Position numbers and translations under genes: made by a program
NCBI RefSeq assembly: GCF_000153345.1
Contig: NZ_CH724125.1
Coordinates: 1,280,607 to 1,344,606, forward strand
From: Neptuniibacter caesariensis
GTDB lineage: Bacteria > Pseudomonadota > Gammaproteobacteria > Pseudomonadales > Balneatricaceae
Reading direction: 5' to 3'
Length of the DNA stretch: 64,000 nt
The notes under the pieces: model-generated
The model's database searches: none
Told to the model about the DNA's origin: nothing
Seen by the model: the letters and a program-made list of their open reading frames with translations, nothing else
Shown here: in pieces, positions 29,725-39,684 of the stretch
Layout: each line of letters begins with the position of its first letter
Numbering within the stretch: the first letter of the stretch is position 1

Positions 29725-29752
29725 TATGTCTGACAGCTGACATATTTGTCAC
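29725..29752 (+). promoter_or_regulatory. Candidate enhancer-type binding site for the sqr sigma-54 promoter
   Basis: Contains the inverted repeat TATGTC-N8-GACATA (29725-29744) and the element CTGACATATTTGTCAC (29737-29752). On the opposite strand this reads GTGACAAATATGTCAG, 13 of 16 bases identical to the site before cydA. It lies about 98 nt upstream of the -24 GG, a usual distance for a sigma-54 activator such as the FisR encoded at 34947. Confidence 0.5.
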
Positions 29753-29847: not shown

Positions 29848-29863
29848 TTGGCATATTTTATGC
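29848..29863 (+). promoter_or_regulatory. Sigma-54 promoter of sqr
   Basis: TTGGCATATTTTATGCT has the -24 GG (29850-29851) and -12 GC (29862-29863) separated by exactly 10 nt, close to the consensus TGGCACNNNNNTTGCW. Transcription would begin near 29875, giving a leader of about 150 nt before sqr. The remaining 29621-30024 gap holds no gene that I can support. Confidence 0.7.
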
Positions 29864-30024
29864 TTTCCTCATAGATGGACATATCTGAATTCAAGAGTCA
29901 CAAGATTGGCAAGCCATTCAGATTATCCCTATTGCAGCTTTCCAGTGAACAGACCATAGCTCTGCCTCTGGCTGATTGCGGTAGTAGCGATAACACAAAA
30001 AACAATGAGTAAGGGTAATCAAAT

Positions 30025-31338
30025 ATGGGTGATTTAAGCAGGCGAAGTTTCCTCAAGCTTACTGCTGCAACCGGCGCAACCGCTGCAGCACCATTAACGT
30101 TAAACGCGACAGCGGCTGAGAAAGTAAAAACGAAAGCGCATATCGTTATTGCTGGCGCGGGAGCAGCCGGTCTTGGGGTTGCAAACCGTCTTGCTAACCA
30201 GCTTGATGGCGCAAAGATTACCATTATCGATGGCAAAAAAAAGCACTTCTATCAACCCGGCTACACTCTGGTAGCAACCGGTATTAAAGGCTCCTCATAC
30301 CCAACATCAGGCACGTCCAGATATATGCCGGAGGGTGTAGATTGGATACAAGAAGCTGTGGCTGAATTTGATCCTGTAGGCAATAAGATCGTCACCGCAA
30401 GCGGTAAGGCCGTAAATTATGATTTTCTGGTTGTTACGACCGGTATGAAGCTTGACTATGCCGCAATTGAAGGCATGGATGTCAATCGTATCGGGCAAAA
30501 CGGACTGGGTAGTCATTACCACAGCCCAGATGCAGCCGCCAAAACATGGTCGGCTATGTCACGCTTCTCTGAGGAAGGTGGTCAGGGAATTTTCCTACGC
30601 CCTGCGACTGAGATGAAATGCGCTGGAGCACCACTTAAATTCACATTCCTAACCGAGCATAACCTGCGTCGTAACGGCACCCGCAGTAAAGCGAATTTGC
30701 TTTATGCGGCTCACAGCCAAAGCCTGTTCAGTGTCCCGATTGTCCATGAAAAGGTCAGAATGCTCTACGAAGATCGTGGCATCGACACTGTCTACAGCCA
30801 CGTACTGCGTAAAATTGATCTCGATCGCAAGATAGCAACCTTTGACACCCCAACGGGTGGTTCAGAGATTGATTACGACTTCATCAATGTCATTCCACCG
30901 ATGCGCGCCCCGGATGCAGTTCGAAATAGCCCTCTGGCTTGGAGAACAGGCCCCTTTGCAGCAGATGGCTGGACCGAAGTGGATAAATACAACCTGCAAC
31001 ATAAAGTGTTTCCAAACGTCTGGTGTGTTGGCGACATTGCCGGTGTTCCAAAAGGTAAAACCGCTGCCAGTGTTAAATGGCAAGTGCCTGTTGCAATCGA
31101 TCACTTGATTGCCGCGATTCAGGATCGAACGGCCACCAGCCAGTATAACGGCTACACATCCTGCCCACTGCTCACTCAGTATGGTCGGGCAATGCTGGTT
31201 GAATTCGATTATAAGAATAATCTTGTTCCTTCCTTCCCGGGGGTTATCGCTCCTCTGGAAGAGCTTTGGGTGACATGGGTAATGAAAACCATGGCTTTGA
31301 AACCAACTTACATTTCAATGGTTCGCGGCCTGGCTTAA
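30025..31338 (+). CDS. sqr: Tat-exported sulfide:quinone oxidoreductase-like flavoprotein
   Basis: A 437-residue FAD protein. A twin-arginine signal (RRSFLKLTAATGA) is followed by the FAD-binding GAGAAG at 44-49, an active-site cysteine C199 in EMKCAGAPLK, C334 in the VGDIAG motif, and C380 in GYTSCPLLTQYG. The cysteine placement fits sulfide:quinone oxidoreductase, which oxidises sulfide to sulfane sulfur and reduces quinone at the membrane. The C-terminus is amphipathic rather than a full span. FccB-type flavocytochrome subunits also carry Tat signals, but no cytochrome subunit is adjacent. It is followed closely by a DUF5368 membrane protein and preceded by a sigma-54 promoter, consistent with FisR control. 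Confidence 0.85.
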   Translation: MGDLSRRSFLKLTAATGATAAAPLTLNATAAEKVKTKAHIVIAGAGAAGLGVANRLANQLDGAKITIIDGKKKHFYQPGYTLVATGIKGSSYPTSGTSRYMPEGVDWIQEAVAEFDPVGNKIVTASGKAVNYDFLVVTTGMKLDYAAIEGMDVNRIGQNGLGSHYHSPDAAAKTWSAMSRFSEEGGQGIFLRPATEMKCAGAPLKFTFLTEHNLRRNGTRSKANLLYAAHSQSLFSVPIVHEKVRMLYEDRGIDTVYSHVLRKIDLDRKIATFDTPTGGSEIDYDFINVIPPMRAPDAVRNSPLAWRTGPFAADGWTEVDKYNLQHKVFPNVWCVGDIAGVPKGKTAASVKWQVPVAIDHLIAAIQDRTATSQYNGYTSCPLLTQYGRAMLVEFDYKNNLVPSFPGVIAPLEELWVTWVMKTMALKPTYISMVRGLA

Positions 31339-31354
31339 TTGGGAGGAACAGATA

Positions 31355-31720
31355 ATGAACGAACTCGATTTCTATACGCTGTACGTGGTTTTTTACGAAA
31401 TGATGGGCATGCTATTTTGGATTCTGATAGCGCTGGTCATCTTTGGTATCGGCGGTTTTATCCTTGCACTTACCCGAGAAGGGGGCTTGCAGAGCCGCCG
31501 CCTGATTCTCTCAGAGATTCTTGGCTTACTGGGTGGCTTTATGGCCCTGTTTATCATGGCCAAGGTCACCATTTCCGGATTTTCTGATGCCGGCGGCCCT
31601 GTAGATTGGCTTCTTGTCGGGTTGATTTGGGGTGGCGGACTGGTCGGAGTAACGATCCTGTCATATGCCATTATGGGGATGCTCAACATCCTTAACGATT
31701 CCCAAAGACAAAAAGCTTAG
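31355..31720 (+). CDS. DUF5368-type membrane protein, sqr partner
   Basis: A 121-residue integral membrane protein with about three hydrophobic segments (residues 15-42, 55-75, 85-112) and an arginine-containing loop (TREGGLQSRRLILSE). It follows sqr by 16 nt with GGAGG before its ATG, so it is co-translated. This small membrane family is found next to Tat-type SQR genes, and I infer that it anchors the flavoprotein or helps quinone access. An alternative frame starting at 31339 is a shadow. The gene ends before a strong hairpin (31736-31765). Confidence 0.75.
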   Translation: MNELDFYTLYVVFYEMMGMLFWILIALVIFGIGGFILALTREGGLQSRRLILSEILGLLGGFMALFIMAKVTISGFSDAGGPVDWLLVGLIWGGGLVGVTILSYAIMGMLNILNDSQRQKA

Positions 31721-31833: not shown

Positions 31834-31864
31834 CTTATGACATATGCAGTGACAATTATGACAC
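31834..31864 (+). promoter_or_regulatory. Candidate enhancer-type binding site for the cydA sigma-54 promoter
   Basis: Contains three TGACA-type motifs, including GTGACAATTATGACAC at 31849-31864. This matches the reverse complement of the sqr upstream element at 13 of 16 bases. It lies 86 nt upstream of the -24 GG. It is proposed as a FisR-type activator site. Confidence 0.5.
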
Positions 31865-31947: not shown

Positions 31948-31964
31948 TTGGCACGGGTTCTGCT
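31948..31964 (+). promoter_or_regulatory. Sigma-54 promoter of cydABX
   Basis: TTGGCACGGGTTCTGCT matches the sigma-54 consensus very well, with -24 GG at 31950-31951 and -12 GC at 31962-31963 separated by 10 nt. The leader would be about 60 nt. The 31721-32036 gap otherwise holds only a terminator and the upstream site. Confidence 0.8.
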
Positions 31965-32036
31965 GTATCTAAAATGATGTTCAATTATTTGTATTCAGTC
32001 AAAAACCCATTTGACTATTATTAGGGGTGCTAAATC

Positions 32037-33620
32037 ATGGTATCTGAAACCGTAGTGGAGCTTTCGCGTTGGCAGTTCGCCCTGACTGCGATGTACCACT
32101 TCCTCTTTGTCCCATTAACTTTGGGACTCTCATTTCTGCTTGCGATCATGGAGTCTGTGTATGTCATGACCAACAAGCAGGTATACAAAGATATGACTCG
32201 TTTCTGGGGCAAGCTCTTTGGTATCAACTTTGCCCTTGGCGTGACGACTGGCCTGACAATGGAATTTCAGTTCGGGACCAACTGGGCTTACTACTCTCAT
32301 TATGTCGGGGATGTGTTCGGTGCACCACTGGCGATAGAGGGGCTGGTTGCCTTCTTCCTTGAATCCACCTTTGTTGGTCTGTTTTTCTTCGGCTGGGATC
32401 GTCTGAGCAAAGTGCAACATCTGACCACAACTTGGCTTGTTGCCATAGGGTCCAACTTCTCTGCTTTGTGGATTCTGATCGCCAACGGCTGGATGCAAAA
32501 CCCTGTCGGTTCTTATTTTAACTTTGAAACTATGCGCATGGAGATGGATAGCTTTGCAGAGGTTATTTTTAACCCCGTTGCTCAAGTTAAATTTGTCCAT
32601 ACCGTCTCTGCAGGTTATGTCACGGGTGCGATCTTCGTATTGGCAATCAGTGCTTATTACCTTCTTAAGAACAAAGATACCGATTTTGCCAGGCGCTCAT
32701 TTGCAATCGCTTCTGCTTTTGGTCTGGCATCGGTAATCTCCGTAATCATTCTGGGAGACGAGAGTGGCTACGAAGTCGGTGAAGTCCAGAAAGTTAAACT
32801 CGCAGCGATGGAAGCCGAGTGGGATACCCATGAAGCCCCAGCTCCCTTTACATTGGTAGGGCTACCTAATCAGGAAACACAGGAAACAGAGTACGCCGTT
32901 AAAATCCCATACGTCCTCGGGCTGATTGCAACCCGCTCATTAGATGAGGAAGTACTTGGGATTAAAGATCTTGTTGAACGCGCTGAAGCCCGGATGCGCA
33001 ATGGTATTGTCGCCTATGAGCTGCTGTTGAAGCTCCGCAATGGCGAAGATACACCCGAAAACCGTAGTGCATTTATGGCTGTGCAAAATGACCTTGGCTA
33101 TGGACTGCTGCTGAAACGTTTTACTCCGGATGTCGTCGATGCAACCGAAGAGCAGATCAAAGCAGCGGCGATGGATACAATTCCGGGCGTAGCACCAATG
33201 TTCTGGACTTTCCGGGTGATGGTCGCCTGTGGCTTTACCATGCTACTTCTTTTCACTCTGGCATTTTATTTTACGGCGAAACGGAAAGAGCATAAAACAC
33301 GCTGGCTACAGAAGTTTGCCCTGCTCTGCCTACCGCTGCCATGGATTGCCAGTGAAACCGGATGGTTTGTAGCCGAGTTTGGCCGCCAACCATGGGCGAT
33401 TGGCGAGATTCTGCCCACCTATGTTGCCACTTCACATCTGTCGGAAAGCGACCTTTGGTTAAGCATCTTTGGTTTTGTCGGTTTGTACACCGCCTTTATG
33501 GTGATCGAAATCTATCTGATGCTGAAATATGTCCGCAAAGGCCCAAGTGCTTTGGGTACAGGGCGTTATGACAATGAAGTAGCGAAAGAGAAAACCGAGG
33601 AGGTGGTTCAGTATGTTTGA
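32037..33620 (+). CDS. cydA: Cytochrome bd ubiquinol oxidase subunit I
   Basis: Heme-bearing catalytic subunit that oxidises quinol and reduces O2 to water. The 527-residue length and long middle insert place it in the long-Q-loop class. Heme ligands are seen as His21 in [10 protein letters not shown] and the His in [10 protein letters not shown] near 187; the GRQPWAIGE motif near 448 is intact. About nine spans are predicted. Bd oxidases resist sulfide, cyanide and NO, which fits its place after sqr and before a sulfur-sensing activator gene. It overlaps cydB by 8 nt and is preceded by a sigma-54 promoter, unlike the usual ArcA/FNR-type control. Confidence 0.97.
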
Positions 33621-34749
33621 TTATGAATCTCTACGCCTGATCTGGTGGCTTCTGGTAGGCATACTTTTGATCGGCTTTGCAGTCACCGATGGCTTCGATA
33701 TCGGTGCTGCTATACTTCTGCCATTTCTGGGAAAAACTGATACCGAGCGCCGGGTTATTATCAATACCGTCGGTCCCCACTGGGATGGTAATCAGGTCTG
33801 GTTCATCACTGCCGGGGGCGCTCTTTTTGCAGCCTGGCCGCGGGTGTATGCGACCGCATTTTCCGGCTTTTACTGGGCCATGTTGTTAGTGCTCTTTGCC
33901 CTATTCTTCCGCCCTATAGGTTTCGAGTACCGCAGCAAGTCTGACAGTGCCCGTTGGCGCAACAACTGGGATTGGGGCTTGTGCCTGGGCTCTTTTGTCC
34001 CGGCGCTGGTATTTGGTATCGCCTTTGGCAATCTCTTCCTGGGGGTTCCCTTTTACTTCGATGAACTGACCCGACCAATCTATACCGGTTCTTTTTTCGC
34101 GCTGCTCAATCCGTTTGCGCTGATCTGTGGTCTGGCCAGCGTCGCCATGCTCGCCCTGCATGGTGCGATCTGGTTACAGATGCGAGCTGGCGGTGATGTT
34201 GAAGCGCGTGCGCAGCATTATGCCAACCGCATCGGCCCTGCCCTGTCTACTCTGATGTTACTTGCAGGTATCGTGATGCTGACGGTTGTTGAAGGTTACA
34301 GCATCACGTCTGAAGTCGTCGGTGATGCCAGTTCAAACCCACTGAACAAACAGGTGGCCCGGGTTGAGAATTGGTTTGCCAATTACGAACAGTACCCTCT
34401 GCTTTGGGCATTGGCGGCAGCCAGCCTGATCCTGCCATTAGGGGTGAGTCTTCTGGCAAAAGCCAATCGTCCAGGCTGGGGGTTTGTGGTCAGCTCACTC
34501 AATATTAGTGTCATCATTCTACTGGCAGGCAGCACGCTATTCCCATTTGTGATGCCATCATCCAGTGATCTCGCCAGCAGTTTAACCCTATGGGATGCCA
34601 CCTCAAGCAAACTGACACTGGAGATTATGTTTTGGGTAGCGATGGTCTTTGTACCGATTATTCTCTGCTACACCGCATGGGGATACTACAAAATGTGGCG
34701 CCGGATTGAGCCGGAGTTCATTGAACAGAATAGCGTTTCTAACTACTAG
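33613..34749 (+). CDS. cydB: Cytochrome bd ubiquinol oxidase subunit II
   Basis: A 378-residue membrane subunit with about eight spans, starting [12 protein letters not shown] and including [18 protein letters not shown] and the conserved [13 protein letters not shown] with the W..N motif. It supports the hemes of CydA and contributes the membrane scaffold. The start has GAGGTGG upstream inside the cydA end, giving an 8-nt overlap and coupled translation. cydX follows after 9 nt. Confidence 0.97.
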
Positions 34750-34758
34750 GAGAATGAT

Positions 34759-34857
34759 ATGTGGTATTTCGCCTGGATTCTCGGTGTGCTGCTCGCCTGC
34801 AGTTTCGGCATCATCAATGCCATGTGGTTAGAAAACCACTTTGATGCTGAGGAGTAA
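34759..34857 (+). CDS. cydX: Cytochrome bd small subunit CydX
   Basis: A 32-residue single-span protein (MWYFAWILGVLLACSFGI...), the CydX/YbgT family. It stabilises heme b595/d of the bd oxidase. The ATG at 34759 has AGGAGA at good spacing. It is too short for most gene finders, but the MWYFAWILG start is diagnostic. It completes the cydABX unit. Confidence 0.95.
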   Translation: MWYFAWILGVLLACSFGIINAMWLENHFDAEE

Positions 34858-34946: not shown

Positions 34947-36272
34947 TTAATCCCCCATTTTTAACTTTCGATACAGAGTGCGCAGGCTGCAGCCTGCAAT
35001 CTCTGCTATCAACGCTTTATCACTGTAACTGGCGAGTAATTGTTGAATATATTCCCGCTCTACCTCTTCCAGGCTATAGCGTTTACGGGCCAGAAGCTTA
35101 AGCGCATCACGGCCTTCGCCACCTTTAACAACGAAGCTGGGGCTGAGTGCCAGTGCCCGGTGCATGACCTCTTCGCTTATCTCGGTGTTGTCACGCAGCA
35201 CCACAGCCCTTTCAAGCACATTCTTAAGCTCACGAATGTTACCTTTAAACGGCTGCTGGGCCAGCAGCAACATCGCCTCTTTGCTGACGCGCAGCGGCAG
35301 AGTGTCATCAATACGCAGCAGGATACTTTCTACCAGCAGCGGCAGGTCTTCAATCCGCTCTGCCAACGAGGGCAAACTGATCGGAAAAGTGCTGATACGA
35401 TGATAAAGGTCCTCACGAAACTCATTGGCCTCAACCATGGCGGGCAAGTTTTTATGGGTTGCACAGATCAACCGAAAATCCGCTTCATAAGGTTCACTCT
35501 CACCCACTGGACGATAAGTACGTGTCTCAATCAAACGCAGCAACTTCACCTGAAGATGCAGCGGAATATCGCCAACCTCATCCAGAAACAAAGTGCCACC
35601 GCGTGCAGACTCCACCAAACCTTTACGGTTACTGGTCGCCCCGGTGAATGCACCTTTGACATGCCCAAACAACTCACTCTCGAACAGGGAATCCGTCAGA
35701 CCAGAACATTCCACTGTAACAAAGGGTTTGCGGGTACGCGGACTAACCGCATGCAGGGCCTGAGCCGCCAACTCTTTTCCGCAGCCGGAAGGCCCGGTCA
35801 AAAGAACACTCGTATCAGTTTTGCCAACCCGATGGATCAGATCGACCAGTTGGTTGAAAGCCGGACTGCGACCGATCATTTTATCGGCAATCGGCTCGGC
35901 ACTGACCTCTCGGATCGGTTTCATCACCTCAATGAAATATTGCCGTTGCAACTCGTCCACCACCGGCGTTGTCTCAATACCCATATGCTCTTTACCCTGA
36001 GCAGTGTTATGAATATGCAAAACACTAGAGGTAACACCACTTTCGTTGGCCGCCTGCATAGGGCAGGTCTCTCCTTCCAGATCACAAGGGCGTTTGTAAC
36101 CATGGGAGATTTCAAAGCACTTACGATGATCTTTATCGCCGCGCTCACCAAAACGGAAATCATACTGCTCATTGGTGGCAACAACATTGTAGTTTTCATC
36201 AACCAGAACGGCAGGGTCAGAATAGCTTTCCAACACATTTCTCATCGACTTCAGCCAGCTTTCATTCGTCAC
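34947..36272 (-). CDS. fisR: Sigma-54 activator FisR-like, sulfane-sulfur-sensing type
   Basis: A sigma-54-dependent activator: an N-terminal PAS-like sensor with three cysteines spaced C-X10-C-X6-C (C52, C63, C70), a central AAA+ domain with Walker A GPSGCGKE and GAFTGA, and a C-terminal Fis-type helix-turn-helix ([18 protein letters not shown]). The Cys spacing is the signature known for FisR, where polysulfide or sulfane sulfur modifies the cysteines and switches on sqr-type genes. The longest frame begins at a TTG at 36314 inside a palindrome. The GTG at 36272 has GGGAG about 8 nt upstream and places the cysteines at the positions expected for FisR, so I use it (441 residues). It converges on cydABX and diverges from cydDC. 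Confidence 0.82.
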
Positions 36273-36296: not shown

Positions 36297-36316
36297 TTTT
36301 GTCAATTTTGACAAAA
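36297..36316. promoter_or_regulatory. Perfect palindrome between fisR and cydD overlapping the cydDC promoter
   Basis: TTTTGTCAA-TT-TTGACAAAA (two 9-nt arms) lies between the divergent genes. Its right arm contains TTGACA (36308-36313), a sigma-70 -35 hexamer for cydDC, with TATATT-like -10 sequence 17-19 nt downstream (36331-36338). The TGACA core resembles the upstream sites of sqr and cydA, so FisR may bind here to autoregulate. A repressor site is the alternative. Confidence 0.55.
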
Positions 36317-36365: not shown

Positions 36366-38069
36366 ATGAAAACCAATCCAAGACCCGAAAACTTTAAAAG
36401 CAAAGCCGACCTTTTGAAATGGTTTGGCAAAGTCGCCTCCCGACATAATCAGCTGCTGACTTTATTGGGATTTTTCCAGGTAGCAGTCACCATCAGCTTT
36501 GCATGGCTAGTCGCAACGCTTTTAGATGCGGCGATCTTTGCCGAGCAGACAAGTCTCCCCTCCATGGCTGATTGGCTGGTATTAACAGCACTTTTAGTTA
36601 TACGTCCTATCTTGAGTTATCTGCAAAGCTGGGCTGGTAATCAGGCTAGTATCAAAGTTCGGGCAGAAATCAGACGTTTTACACTTAAACAGTGCTTTTC
36701 TCTGAATATCAGACTTTTTCCCAGCTTTAACGTCGCTGAACTCAGCAACTTACTGACTACCGAAATCAATAGCTTGCGTGAATATTATTCGGAATTTATC
36801 GCACAAAAGCGCTTAGCCGTGATCATGCCTATCGCCATAATCATTGCAGCATCAACAGTTAACTGGTTGGTACCCCTGATCTTGGCACTCACAGCCCCCT
36901 TGATACCTCTGTTTATGATTCTCGTCGGTAGAAAGGCAGCCGCTGCCAGCCAGGGAAATCTGCAACAACTCAATCGCCTGGGCAACTTACTGGCAGACCG
37001 GCTCAAAAACCTTCAGCCAATACAACAGGCAGGTACAGTTGAACAGGAGGCAAGCCAGCTCTACCAACAATCGGATCAATTCCGCTGCTCTACCATACGA
37101 GTACTTCGGCTGGCCTTTCTGTCCGGCACACTGCTGGAGTTCTTCAGTGCTATCAGTGTAGCGCTGGTCGCAGTTTATCTGGGCCTGTTTTTCCTAGATA
37201 AATATCAACTTGGTAGCTGGAGTACTGATCTCTCACTAGCGGAAGGGGTCTTTCTGTTGATGCTAGCCCCTGAGTTTTATCTTCCGCTACGCCGGATGGG
37301 TGCGCTGTACCATGCCAAAATGGATGCGGAGAGTGTCGCAGAGCACCTGATGCAACTGAATAATCTGGTTGCTGAAAATAGGCATAGCAATCACAAAGAA
37401 ACGGTAGAAAAACTGCAAAAAATTGAGCTGATCGATGCGCAATCAGGGGATAAAGGGCACCTGATTCATCGCCCCATATCGTTTAGCTTGCGCCCCGGGG
37501 AGAAGCTCCTGCTAAATGGCCCATCTGGCTCTGGAAAAACCACCTTGCTGGATACACTGGCAGGTCTGCATTCTCTGCCAAAGGGTGAAATAGTCATCAA
37601 TAATCAAACGCAGCGGCTTCACCAGCAAGCAGCGTGGTGGTCGCAAATCGGTTATATGCCGCAAAAACCAGAGTTGTTCTTTAGCACTATTCGCGACAAT
37701 CTCTGCCTGGGTCGGACGTTCTCCGATGCAGAGCTGTACTCTGCCCTGACTGATGCCCGCGCAGACAAGATGGTCCGTGATCTGCCGGGCGAACTTGATT
37801 ACCAGATCAGCGACAGCGGCGGTTACTTATCGGGCGGCCAGGCTCAGAGAATCGCTTTAGCAAGAGTCTTTCTGCATCAGCCAAGATTACTGCTCCTGGA
37901 TGAGCCCACAGCCAACCTGGATGCCGATACCGCACAAGCATTTTTACAACAGTTACAGCTCTTTTGTAACCGAGGGGGCATGGTCATTATGGCGAGCCAC
38001 AGGCCAGCCGATAAGCGCTTCTTCACCAAGGAAGTGGCCATGCAAGCGATGAGGAATCGCCATGATTAA
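36366..38069 (+). CDS. cydD: Thiol (glutathione/cysteine) ABC exporter subunit CydD
   Basis: A 567-residue fused ABC exporter half: six-span membrane domain (about residues 30-330) and ATPase domain with Walker A GPSGSGKTT, signature LSGGQAQRIALAR and Walker B LLLLDEPTANLD. CydDC exports reduced thiols to the periplasm and is needed for assembly of bd-type oxidase heme. It partners with cydC, which overlaps it by 8 nt. Its place next to fisR and the cydABX unit is unusual in that it joins assembly factor, oxidase and sulfide sensor in one neighbourhood. Confidence 0.93.
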   Translation: MKTNPRPENFKSKADLLKWFGKVASRHNQLLTLLGFFQVAVTISFAWLVATLLDAAIFAEQTSLPSMADWLVLTALLVIRPILSYLQSWAGNQASIKVRAEIRRFTLKQCFSLNIRLFPSFNVAELSNLLTTEINSLREYYSEFIAQKRLAVIMPIAIIIAASTVNWLVPLILALTAPLIPLFMILVGRKAAAASQGNLQQLNRLGNLLADRLKNLQPIQQAGTVEQEASQLYQQSDQFRCSTIRVLRLAFLSGTLLEFFSAISVALVAVYLGLFFLDKYQLGSWSTDLSLAEGVFLLMLAPEFYLPLRRMGALYHAKMDAESVAEHLMQLNNLVAENRHSNHKETVEKLQKIELIDAQSGDKGHLIHRPISFSLRPGEKLLLNGPSGSGKTTLLDTLAGLHSLPKGEIVINNQTQRLHQQAAWWSQIGYMPQKPELFFSTIRDNLCLGRTFSDAELYSALTDARADKMVRDLPGELDYQISDSGGYLSGGQAQRIALARVFLHQPRLLLLDEPTANLDADTAQAFLQQLQLFCNRGGMVIMASHRPADKRFFTKEVAMQAMRNRHD

Positions 38070-39684
38070 TCTAAAACAACACTATCTGACCCTACTTGTT
38101 CGCGAACGCCGCTATGCACTTCTGGGAACATTTCTCGCGATTGTCACCACCTTCTCGGGTATCGCACTACTCGCCGTATCTGGCTGGTTTATAAGTGCTG
38201 CTGCCGCTGCAGGTCTCAGTACGATAACCGCTCATACATTTAATTTTTTTACCCCGGGCGCTATGGTCCGTGGTTTATCGATCAGCCGCACAGCGGGGCG
38301 CTATGGTGAAAGAATTACCAGCCACGAAGCGACCTTTCGCATTATTGCGCAGTTACGCGCGGATCTGTTCAAGTTCGTTGCCGCGCAAAAATGGAATGAG
38401 CAACAACTTAACCGCCATCAAGTCTCAAGCCGGCTGCTCCAAGATATACACAATATTGAGTCGATCTATCAATTTGCAGTGATACCTGCCCTCACTGCAT
38501 TGGCTGTCTCTATCGGCTATCTGATTACTCTGATTCTGGTGCTGCCTCAGCTATCACTGATGGTTGCTCCGATACTATTCGCTGTATGCATTCTGATTCC
38601 CTGGCTTTACAGCCAGAGGGTTCTTGAGCCTGAAAACACACAGCAAGAGCAACAAAGCCTAATGTGGATGGAATCCAGCACACTGTTCAACGGCATACGT
38701 ACCCTGACACTTTTTCGCCAAATCGAACCCCGTGGAGCAACATTGCAGAAACAGTCCGAAGCGATGGACCGATGGGAAGCAAAAACACTTAATCGCCAAC
38801 AGCAGGTTCTTCTGCTATCGCAAATATCTCTGGCTGCCATGGCAATCATCAGTTTCTGGCAAGGCTTTATCGCTTTTAATGCTGGCCAGTTGGAAGGGGC
38901 GTATATCTTTATGCTGCTGCTTCTCACTTTAGGCTCCGCCGAAGTATTAGCCGGTACATGCCCTGCTCTGGCCAGCCTGGTATTAGGCCTGCGCGCCCTA
39001 TCCCGTTTGGAAGCACACAGTTCAAGCGCTCGCCAAATCGAAGACCAGCGTTTATTTCAAAACCCTAACAAGCAAGAGATGGCTGTTCATGTTAAGCAGT
39101 TAACTTATGTGTATCCACAAGCAGATAAAACGGTCCTGCGGAAACTCAATTTTAAGCAGCAAGGGCCTGAATGGATTTGGTTGAAAGGACCGAGCGGATG
39201 CGGAAAAAGCACATTGTTACAGCTTTTGAATGGCGACCTTAATCCGACTCAGGGCCGCATCGAATTTGACGGATTCCAGCCACATAAGGTTCAGTTTATG
39301 CCTCAGAGGATCGATATTCTCAGAGCCTCTCTGCGTGACAATCTCTGCTTGCACCACCCTCATTCAGATGAGCAACTCTGGACTGCATTGGAGCAAGTTG
39401 AACTGGCCAGTTGGGCGAAACACCTCCCTCATGGTCTAGATACCTGGCTTGGTGAGAATGAGTGGCAACCTTCGGGAGGTGAGAGTAAACGCATCGGACT
39501 TGCACGCATTCTGCTACAGGATCCCAACCTCATTCTGCTGGATGAACCCACCGCCGGGCTCGATACAGATCTGTCAGTGACACTTCTGCAAAGGTTAGCT
39601 GATCAGTGGAAAGATAAGTTGGTTATCTGCAGCAGCCATGAATGCTTCCGGAAGATGAATCAAAACCGGAGTATTCAGTTATAG
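38062..39684 (+). CDS. cydC: Thiol ABC exporter subunit CydC
   Basis: A 540-residue partner half-transporter with the CydC-type start LVRERRYALLGTFLA and TTFSGIALLAVSGWFISAAAAAGL. Membrane spans lie over residues 15-310; ATPase: Walker A GPSGCGKST, signature PSGGESKRIGLAR (QPSGGE rather than LSGGQ), Walker B LILLDEPTAGLD. The altered signature motif is seen in many CydC proteins and suggests one weak ATP site. It overlaps cydD and ends 18 nt before the tRNA-associated repeats. Confidence 0.93.
   Translation: MINLKQHYLTLLVRERRYALLGTFLAIVTTFSGIALLAVSGWFISAAAAAGLSTITAHTFNFFTPGAMVRGLSISRTAGRYGERITSHEATFRIIAQLRADLFKFVAAQKWNEQQLNRHQVSSRLLQDIHNIESIYQFAVIPALTALAVSIGYLITLILVLPQLSLMVAPILFAVCILIPWLYSQRVLEPENTQQEQQSLMWMESSTLFNGIRTLTLFRQIEPRGATLQKQSEAMDRWEAKTLNRQQQVLLLSQISLAAMAIISFWQGFIAFNAGQLEGAYIFMLLLLTLGSAEVLAGTCPALASLVLGLRALSRLEAHSSSARQIEDQRLFQNPNKQEMAVHVKQLTYVYPQADKTVLRKLNFKQQGPEWIWLKGPSGCGKSTLLQLLNGDLNPTQGRIEFDGFQPHKVQFMPQRIDILRASLRDNLCLHHPHSDEQLWTALEQVELASWAKHLPHGLDTWLGENEWQPSGGESKRIGLARILLQDPNLILLDEPTAGLDTDLSVTLLQRLADQWKDKLVICSSHECFRKMNQNRSIQL

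Follow-up and report, generated by a model that had tools for sequence, protein, structure and literature searches.

The cydABX genes of Neptuniibacter caesariensis, which encode a cytochrome bd oxidase, are preceded by a predicted sigma-54 promoter and adjoined by a gene for a putative FisR-type activator. We consider it likely that this activator responds to persulfide, and that it drives both a sulfide:quinone oxidoreductase (SQR) and the bd oxidase via sigma-54. In the mechanism that we propose, sulfide would be oxidized to persulfide or polysulfide, for instance by the SQR whose gene lies immediately upstream, and this would react with a triad of cysteines (C52, C63 and C70) in the PAS domain of the activator, thereby releasing its AAA+ ATPase. 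From TGWCA-N4-TGWCA enhancers located ~90–180 nt upstream, the bound activator would then open the sigma-54 promoters of SQR and cydABX, with RNA polymerase carrying sigma-54 (RpoN) using positions 31948–31964 as the −24/−12 promoter of the latter. The outcome would be that electrons from sulfide enter the quinone pool through SQR and pass to oxygen through bd, an oxidase that is not poisoned by sulfide. If true, this is a direct genetic route from sulfide to the induction of sulfide-resistant respiration. The features concerned are listed below by their positions in the window, i.e. the whole stretch of 64,000 nucleotides that was analysed.

29738–29751, no strand: TGACATATTTGTCA, an enhancer-like inverted repeat that precedes SQR and is one of the three TGWCA-N4-TGWCA sequences of the window
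29848–29864, plus strand: TTGGCATATTTTATGCT, a further sigma-54-like site, preceding SQR (GG-N10-GC, three mismatches to YTGGCACGN4TTGCW)
30025–31338, plus strand: SQR (Pfam and NCBIfam; TAT signal; both active-site cysteine motifs)
31355–31720, plus strand: DUF5368 membrane protein (PF17336, E = 3e-35), between SQR and cydA
31850–31863, no strand: enhancer-like inverted repeat TGACAATTATGACA, beginning 98 nt before the sigma-54 site
31948–31964, plus strand: TTGGCACGGGTTCTGCT, predicted sigma-54 (−24/−12) promoter of cydABX (motif, shuffles and genome scan)
32037–33620, plus strand: cydA, cytochrome bd subunit I (PF01654, E = 1.6e-176)
33613–34749, plus strand: cydB, cytochrome bd subunit II (TIGR00203, 507.8 bits, cut-off 117.3)
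34759–34857, plus strand: cydX (TIGR02106)
34947–36272, minus strand: putative FisR-type sigma-54 enhancer-binding activator, convergent with cydABX (domains, C52/C63/C70, PAS model)
36300–36313, no strand: perfect TGTCA-N4-TGACA before the activator gene, in the activator–cydD interval; candidate autoregulatory site
36366–38069, plus strand: cydD (TIGR02857, 470.3 bits, cut-off 435), divergent from the activator gene
38062–39684, plus strand: cydC-like ABC transporter subunit (from position and sequence, no profile scan), divergent from the activator gene

The sigma-54 consensus has GG and GC separated by 10 nt within TGGCAC...TTGCW. In TTGGCACGGGTTCTGCT the GG lies at 31950–31951 and the GC at 31962–31963, confirming the spacing of exactly 10 nt given in a preliminary description of this DNA. 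The distance to cydA, put there at about 75 nt, is 72 nt from the end of the site to the ATG. The site has one mismatch to YTGGCACGN4TTGCW, and nowhere else in the window is TGGCACG-N5-TGCW matched perfectly. Of 500 dinucleotide shuffles of the 160 nt preceding cydA, none produced an equally good site. When two mismatches to TGGCACG-N5-TGCW are allowed there are 23 matches in the window, fewer than the shuffle mean of 33, and loose matches therefore carry no meaning. In the whole genome YTGGCACGN4TTGCW with up to one mismatch is found 11 times, compared with six times for the pattern read backward, so that the quality of the motif by itself is modest, suggestive evidence and no proof. Its recurrence before the cydA genes of relatives, described below, is the stronger argument against chance, and we have rejected a chance match on that basis despite the modest genome-wide specificity. 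The genome contains an RpoN gene, the one match to Sigma54_DBD (E = 3.1e-70). Between the promoter and cydA there is also an inverted repeat AGTCAAA-N6-TTTGACT, at 31997–32016.

The SQR matches human SQOR (6mp5) with E = 7e-73 and conserves the KCAGAP and YTSCPL motifs, while its match to the NCBIfam SQR model falls below the cut-off of that model. From their spacing, the SQR and DUF5368 genes probably form one operon. No PDO was found among the nine neighbouring proteins scanned with Pfam and NCBIfam. SQR precedes cydA at eight loci including the window, and in six of these there is a sigma-54-like site with two or three mismatches in the 420 nt before SQR. Over the same distance L034 has no such site and L037 has one with five mismatches.

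The preliminary description held that a sigma-54 promoter implies an enhancer-binding activator, and a gene for such a protein indeed adjoins cydABX on the opposite strand. We propose the GTG at 36272 as its start; the mechanical open reading frame starts at a TTG at 36314, and in several relatives an ATG occupies the homologous position. The protein has a Sigma54_activat (AAA+) domain (E = 1.2e-64) containing GAFTGA, a Fis-type helix-turn-helix (HTH_8) and a PAS_4 match below cut-off. The model of the sensor domain has a PAS fold with a mean pLDDT of 83.4, and its best Foldseek match has E = 2.3e-6 and a TM-score of 0.57. None of the best 25 of 28 NCBIfam families reached its cut-off, and assignment to NorR or another named family of enhancer-binding proteins was rejected.

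Counted from the GTG, C52, C63 and C70 are the first three cysteines of the activator (C-x10-C-x6-C). In 26 aligned activators, that of the window included, all three are invariant, together with S56, H57, Y59, P62, G67 and E68. Some more distant activators keep the cysteines while Y59 or P62 varies. The third cysteine of FisR is presumably Cys71. A homologue from Cupriavidus metallidurans (NC_007974.2) has its first cysteines at exactly 53, 64 and 71, with the same spacing as those of the window. Its gene is transcribed divergently from a PDO-like gene that has an SQR-like gene next to it; the top NCBIfam match of the PDO-like product is Blh (390 bits, under the cut-off of 625). In our scans the interval between activator and PDO-like gene there contained no good sigma-54 site, which tells slightly against our reading; the best has five mismatches, or four inside the activator gene. 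In C. pinatubonensis FisR a tetrasulfide forms between Cys53 and Cys64 according to passages of PMC9495516; the agreement with the window is one of published residue numbers.

We built a tree of 87 activators, without named FisR proteins. The clade containing the window's activator comprises 18 rows, 13 of them beside cydA. Its sister group consists of 13 PDO-linked activators (node 100/98), and at least four changes of the cyd-linked label are required over the whole tree. No cydA adjoins the remaining five of the 18 in the DNA seen; activators of this clade without cydA in view are those of L007/L098, L008/L070/L097, L039, L041 and L048. A sequence search found no cydA in two of the genomes (G006 and G025), and such members of the clade must therefore serve other targets.

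From its domains, cysteines and position, the activator at 34947–36272 is likely to exert FisR-type control of cydABX. There is another way to read its sensor domain. With the promoter and the adjacent activator as proposed, the PAS domain might sense oxygen or redox state via a cofactor, or NO, or a metal bound by cysteine and histidine. PAS domains that carry flavin (LOV, NifL) or heme account for many of the best matches among solved structures, at a moderate TM-score of ~0.57, bd oxidases also serve in low-oxygen and NO stress, and invariant histidines accompany the cysteines of the activator. However, the spacing and the numbering of the cysteines agree with FisR, and the relatives of the activator adjoin PDO, SQR or sox genes, just as there is an SQR gene in this module. 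We therefore think a different ligand unlikely, and persulfide the probable signal of the activator.

Enhancers were sought de novo by scoring all 5-nt inverted repeats with spacings of 0–12 in a stretch of at most 220 nt preceding the sigma-54 site, in 24 regions. The largest excess was for TGTCA-N4-TGACA, present with up to one mismatch in 15 of the regions. In 200 shuffles the mean was 0.21, and no shuffle had more than three. The repeats start 88–177 nt before the sigma-54 site. At two loci (L033 and L034) the repeat is missing before cydA. The window contains three copies of TGWCA-N4-TGWCA where 0.22 are expected, before SQR, cydA and the activator and hence all in this module, the pattern having been picked after the relatives and these three sites had been seen. 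Over the whole genome the excess is slight, with 19 copies compared with 14 for the control. The region upstream of the activator gene itself was left out of the discovery, and the repeat is present there in several relatives too. A scan of the long loci for the repeat combined with a sigma-54 site (up to three mismatches) returned 27 hits, and no hit when the same DNA was reversed. Ten of the hits lie before cydA or its operon, two before SQR and five before PDO-like genes, 17 in all; of the other ten, four come from two sites of a single locus present twice (L070 and L097).

We examined the 20–220 nt beyond the 16 other TGWCA-N4-TGWCA sequences of the genome. There is one good sigma-54-like site, TTGGCACCCTTAATGCT, with two mismatches. 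L131 has a site with three mismatches, where the repeat lies inside a long frame, L134 and L135 have sites with four, and the other twelve have none with up to four. TTGGCACCCTTAATGCT and its repeat (TGACA-N4-TGTCA) precede an open reading frame for a small hydrophobic protein of 40 amino acids (L147 6643–6765, minus strand, contig C4 of the same genome), a possible further target of the activator.

The genome also encodes a second FisR-type activator, beside genes identified by NCBIfam as soxC, soxY, soxA and soxB (L095 1719–10077, contig C5). At that locus there is no sigma-54 site with up to four mismatches on its own strand of the scanned stretch, and one with four on the other strand. There may be separate activators for sox and for cyd within one genome. 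This raises the alternative that the sigma-54 promoter is real and yet is activated by another enhancer-binding protein, for example this sox-linked paralogue or one of the further activators in the genome, while the neighbour of cydABX regulates something else, as the members of its clade without cydA near by might suggest. Against this, of the 18 members of the neighbour's clade in view, 13 adjoin cyd, and the same repeat precedes SQR, cydA and the neighbour itself, and we consider activation from elsewhere very improbable.

The recurrence of the promoter was followed in 31 cydA loci that have a FisR-type gene near (linked loci). These comprise 24 loci after copies had been dropped, six from a class-wide sample, and one on a Pseudoalteromonas plasmid; L085 was counted as linked, with the activator ~7.5 kb from cydA. 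The class-wide sample covered 369 genomes, of which 28 (the window's own included) have a match at E 1e-95; scoring was limited to the best four candidates in each genome, with 1.5 kb of flanking DNA in view on both sides. A sigma-54-like site is found upstream of the cyd operon in 29 of the 31 linked loci, and in 28 of them it has three mismatches or fewer. Of the set of 24 loci, 21 have GG-N10-GC with up to four mismatches in the 160 nt preceding cydA, and in the other three (L065, L068 and L069) a site with one mismatch precedes the first gene of the cyd operon. Five of the six class-wide loci have a site, with 0, 1, 1, 2 and 3 mismatches, the last of which (L125) is doubtful because the interval of 1.2 kb holds two such sites; the sixth (L126) has no GG-N10-GC site. 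The Pseudoalteromonas locus (L101) lacks a strict GG-N10-GC site and has a variant with GT for GC. The invariance of GG and GC in all the others is by construction, since the scan requires both.

In contrast, only one of ten unlinked cydA genes of relatives has a site (L093, four mismatches), with none better within either 160 or 400 nt; the class-wide linked loci and L065, L068 and L069 were searched over up to 1.2 kb. Two of the ten unlinked genomes (G018 and G032) do encode a FisR-type protein, on a different contig. The contrast of 29/31 with 1/10 is limited by the kinship of these bacteria: the CydA tree of 27 linked and 10 unlinked rows offers four independent contrasts, of which two agree and none oppose, while in the remaining two linked and unlinked rows do not differ (sign test p = 0.5).

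Under another reading, cydABX would be transcribed from an ordinary sigma-70 promoter, TTGGCA-N16-TAAAAT at 31948–31975, with the GG-N10-GC coincidental or secondary. This would account for the hexamers matching 10 of 12 positions at the same place in the window and for six sigma-70-like sites on the two strands of the region (shuffle mean 1.2), but it is very improbable, given that the same position matches at only 5–8 of 12 in the other 20 loci tested while the −24/−12 form persists, and that the presence of the site tracks the linked activator. We regard a sigma-54 promoter as very likely, and as the best-supported reading of 31948–31964. The proposal of such a promoter for cydABX in the preliminary description is thus supported by the RpoN gene, the adjacent activator, the upstream repeat and the recurrence in relatives. 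The promoter motif, the domains and cysteines of the activator, the enhancer-like repeats and the SQR gene are all seen in the sequence, as is their joint recurrence. From these we infer the use of sigma-54, binding of the activator at the repeats, the persulfide signal and the physiological role.

Some linked loci differ in gene content. At L114, L128, L065, L068 and L069 the cyd operon seems to start with a PDO-like or unrecognised gene located between the activator and cydA, and in some of these a CydP-like small gene, judged by eye, comes next. Three of the leader-gene products were scanned with Pfam; that of L128 gave a weak Lactamase_B match, and those of L114 and L065 (the latter a fragment) gave none. 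In Pseudoalteromonas xiamenensis (L101 2949–5660) CydA and CydB seem to be fused, with a single annotated gene of 903 codons spanning the two.

Two relatives (G013 and G028) have CydA 84–85% identical to that of the window, no FisR-type gene at E 1e-60 and no sigma-54 site. Both have an FNR-like box, TAGATATATATCAA, before cydA, with one mismatch to the consensus TTGAT-N4-ATCAA. The best match in the 250 nt before cydA of the window has three mismatches, and the linked loci L044 and L045 have two. Control of the window's cydA by an FNR box was rejected for want of a good match upstream, in agreement with the earlier view that control here departs from the usual FNR/ArcA type. Activator and cyd can be convergent or divergent in Gammaproteobacteria, and SQR or a PDO-like leader gene is present in some cases and lacking in others. 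We lean towards the view that persulfide-sensing FisR-type activators have become linked to bd oxidase more than once in this class. Sigma-54 and reactive sulfur would then govern cyd in these bacteria, while relatives with a very similar oxidase have an FNR-like box instead.

The same oxidase is found in E. coli, where cydAB is under FNR/ArcA control. The relatives without both activator and promoter provide natural controls for our proposal, which also predicts the sequence of the enhancer. The passages available of PMC9495516 and PMC12170894 describe FisR of Cupriavidus pinatubonensis as a sigma-54 activator with the same spacing of the cysteine pair, which is activated by sulfane sulfur and controls sulfide-oxidation genes. 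The window departs from that system in its linked genes: SQR is present with no PDO seen, and most notably the activator is flanked by cydABX and, behind it, by cydDC. In the available text of PMC7315123, FisR of Acinetobacter baumannii is needed for sulfide induction of the PDO1/SQR/TauE operon; sulfide also induces cydAB, and bd resists sulfide. That text does not tie cydAB to FisR. By locus tag cydAB of A. baumannii (A1S_1433–1434) lies away from fisR (A1S_1707), whereas the activator of the window adjoins cydABX. Sulfide induces bd oxidase in several bacteria, and the same passages of PMC7315123 name no direct sulfur-sensing regulator of cyd. A FisR-type activator beside cydABX and SQR would be a simple and testable answer to how sulfide induces bd. 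A search of titles, opening lines of abstracts and selected passages of the open literature returned no report of a cyd promoter controlled by FisR or sigma-54, although subscription papers may hold more. The family of the regulator is known from these systems, and the wiring to cyd that we propose for it would be new.
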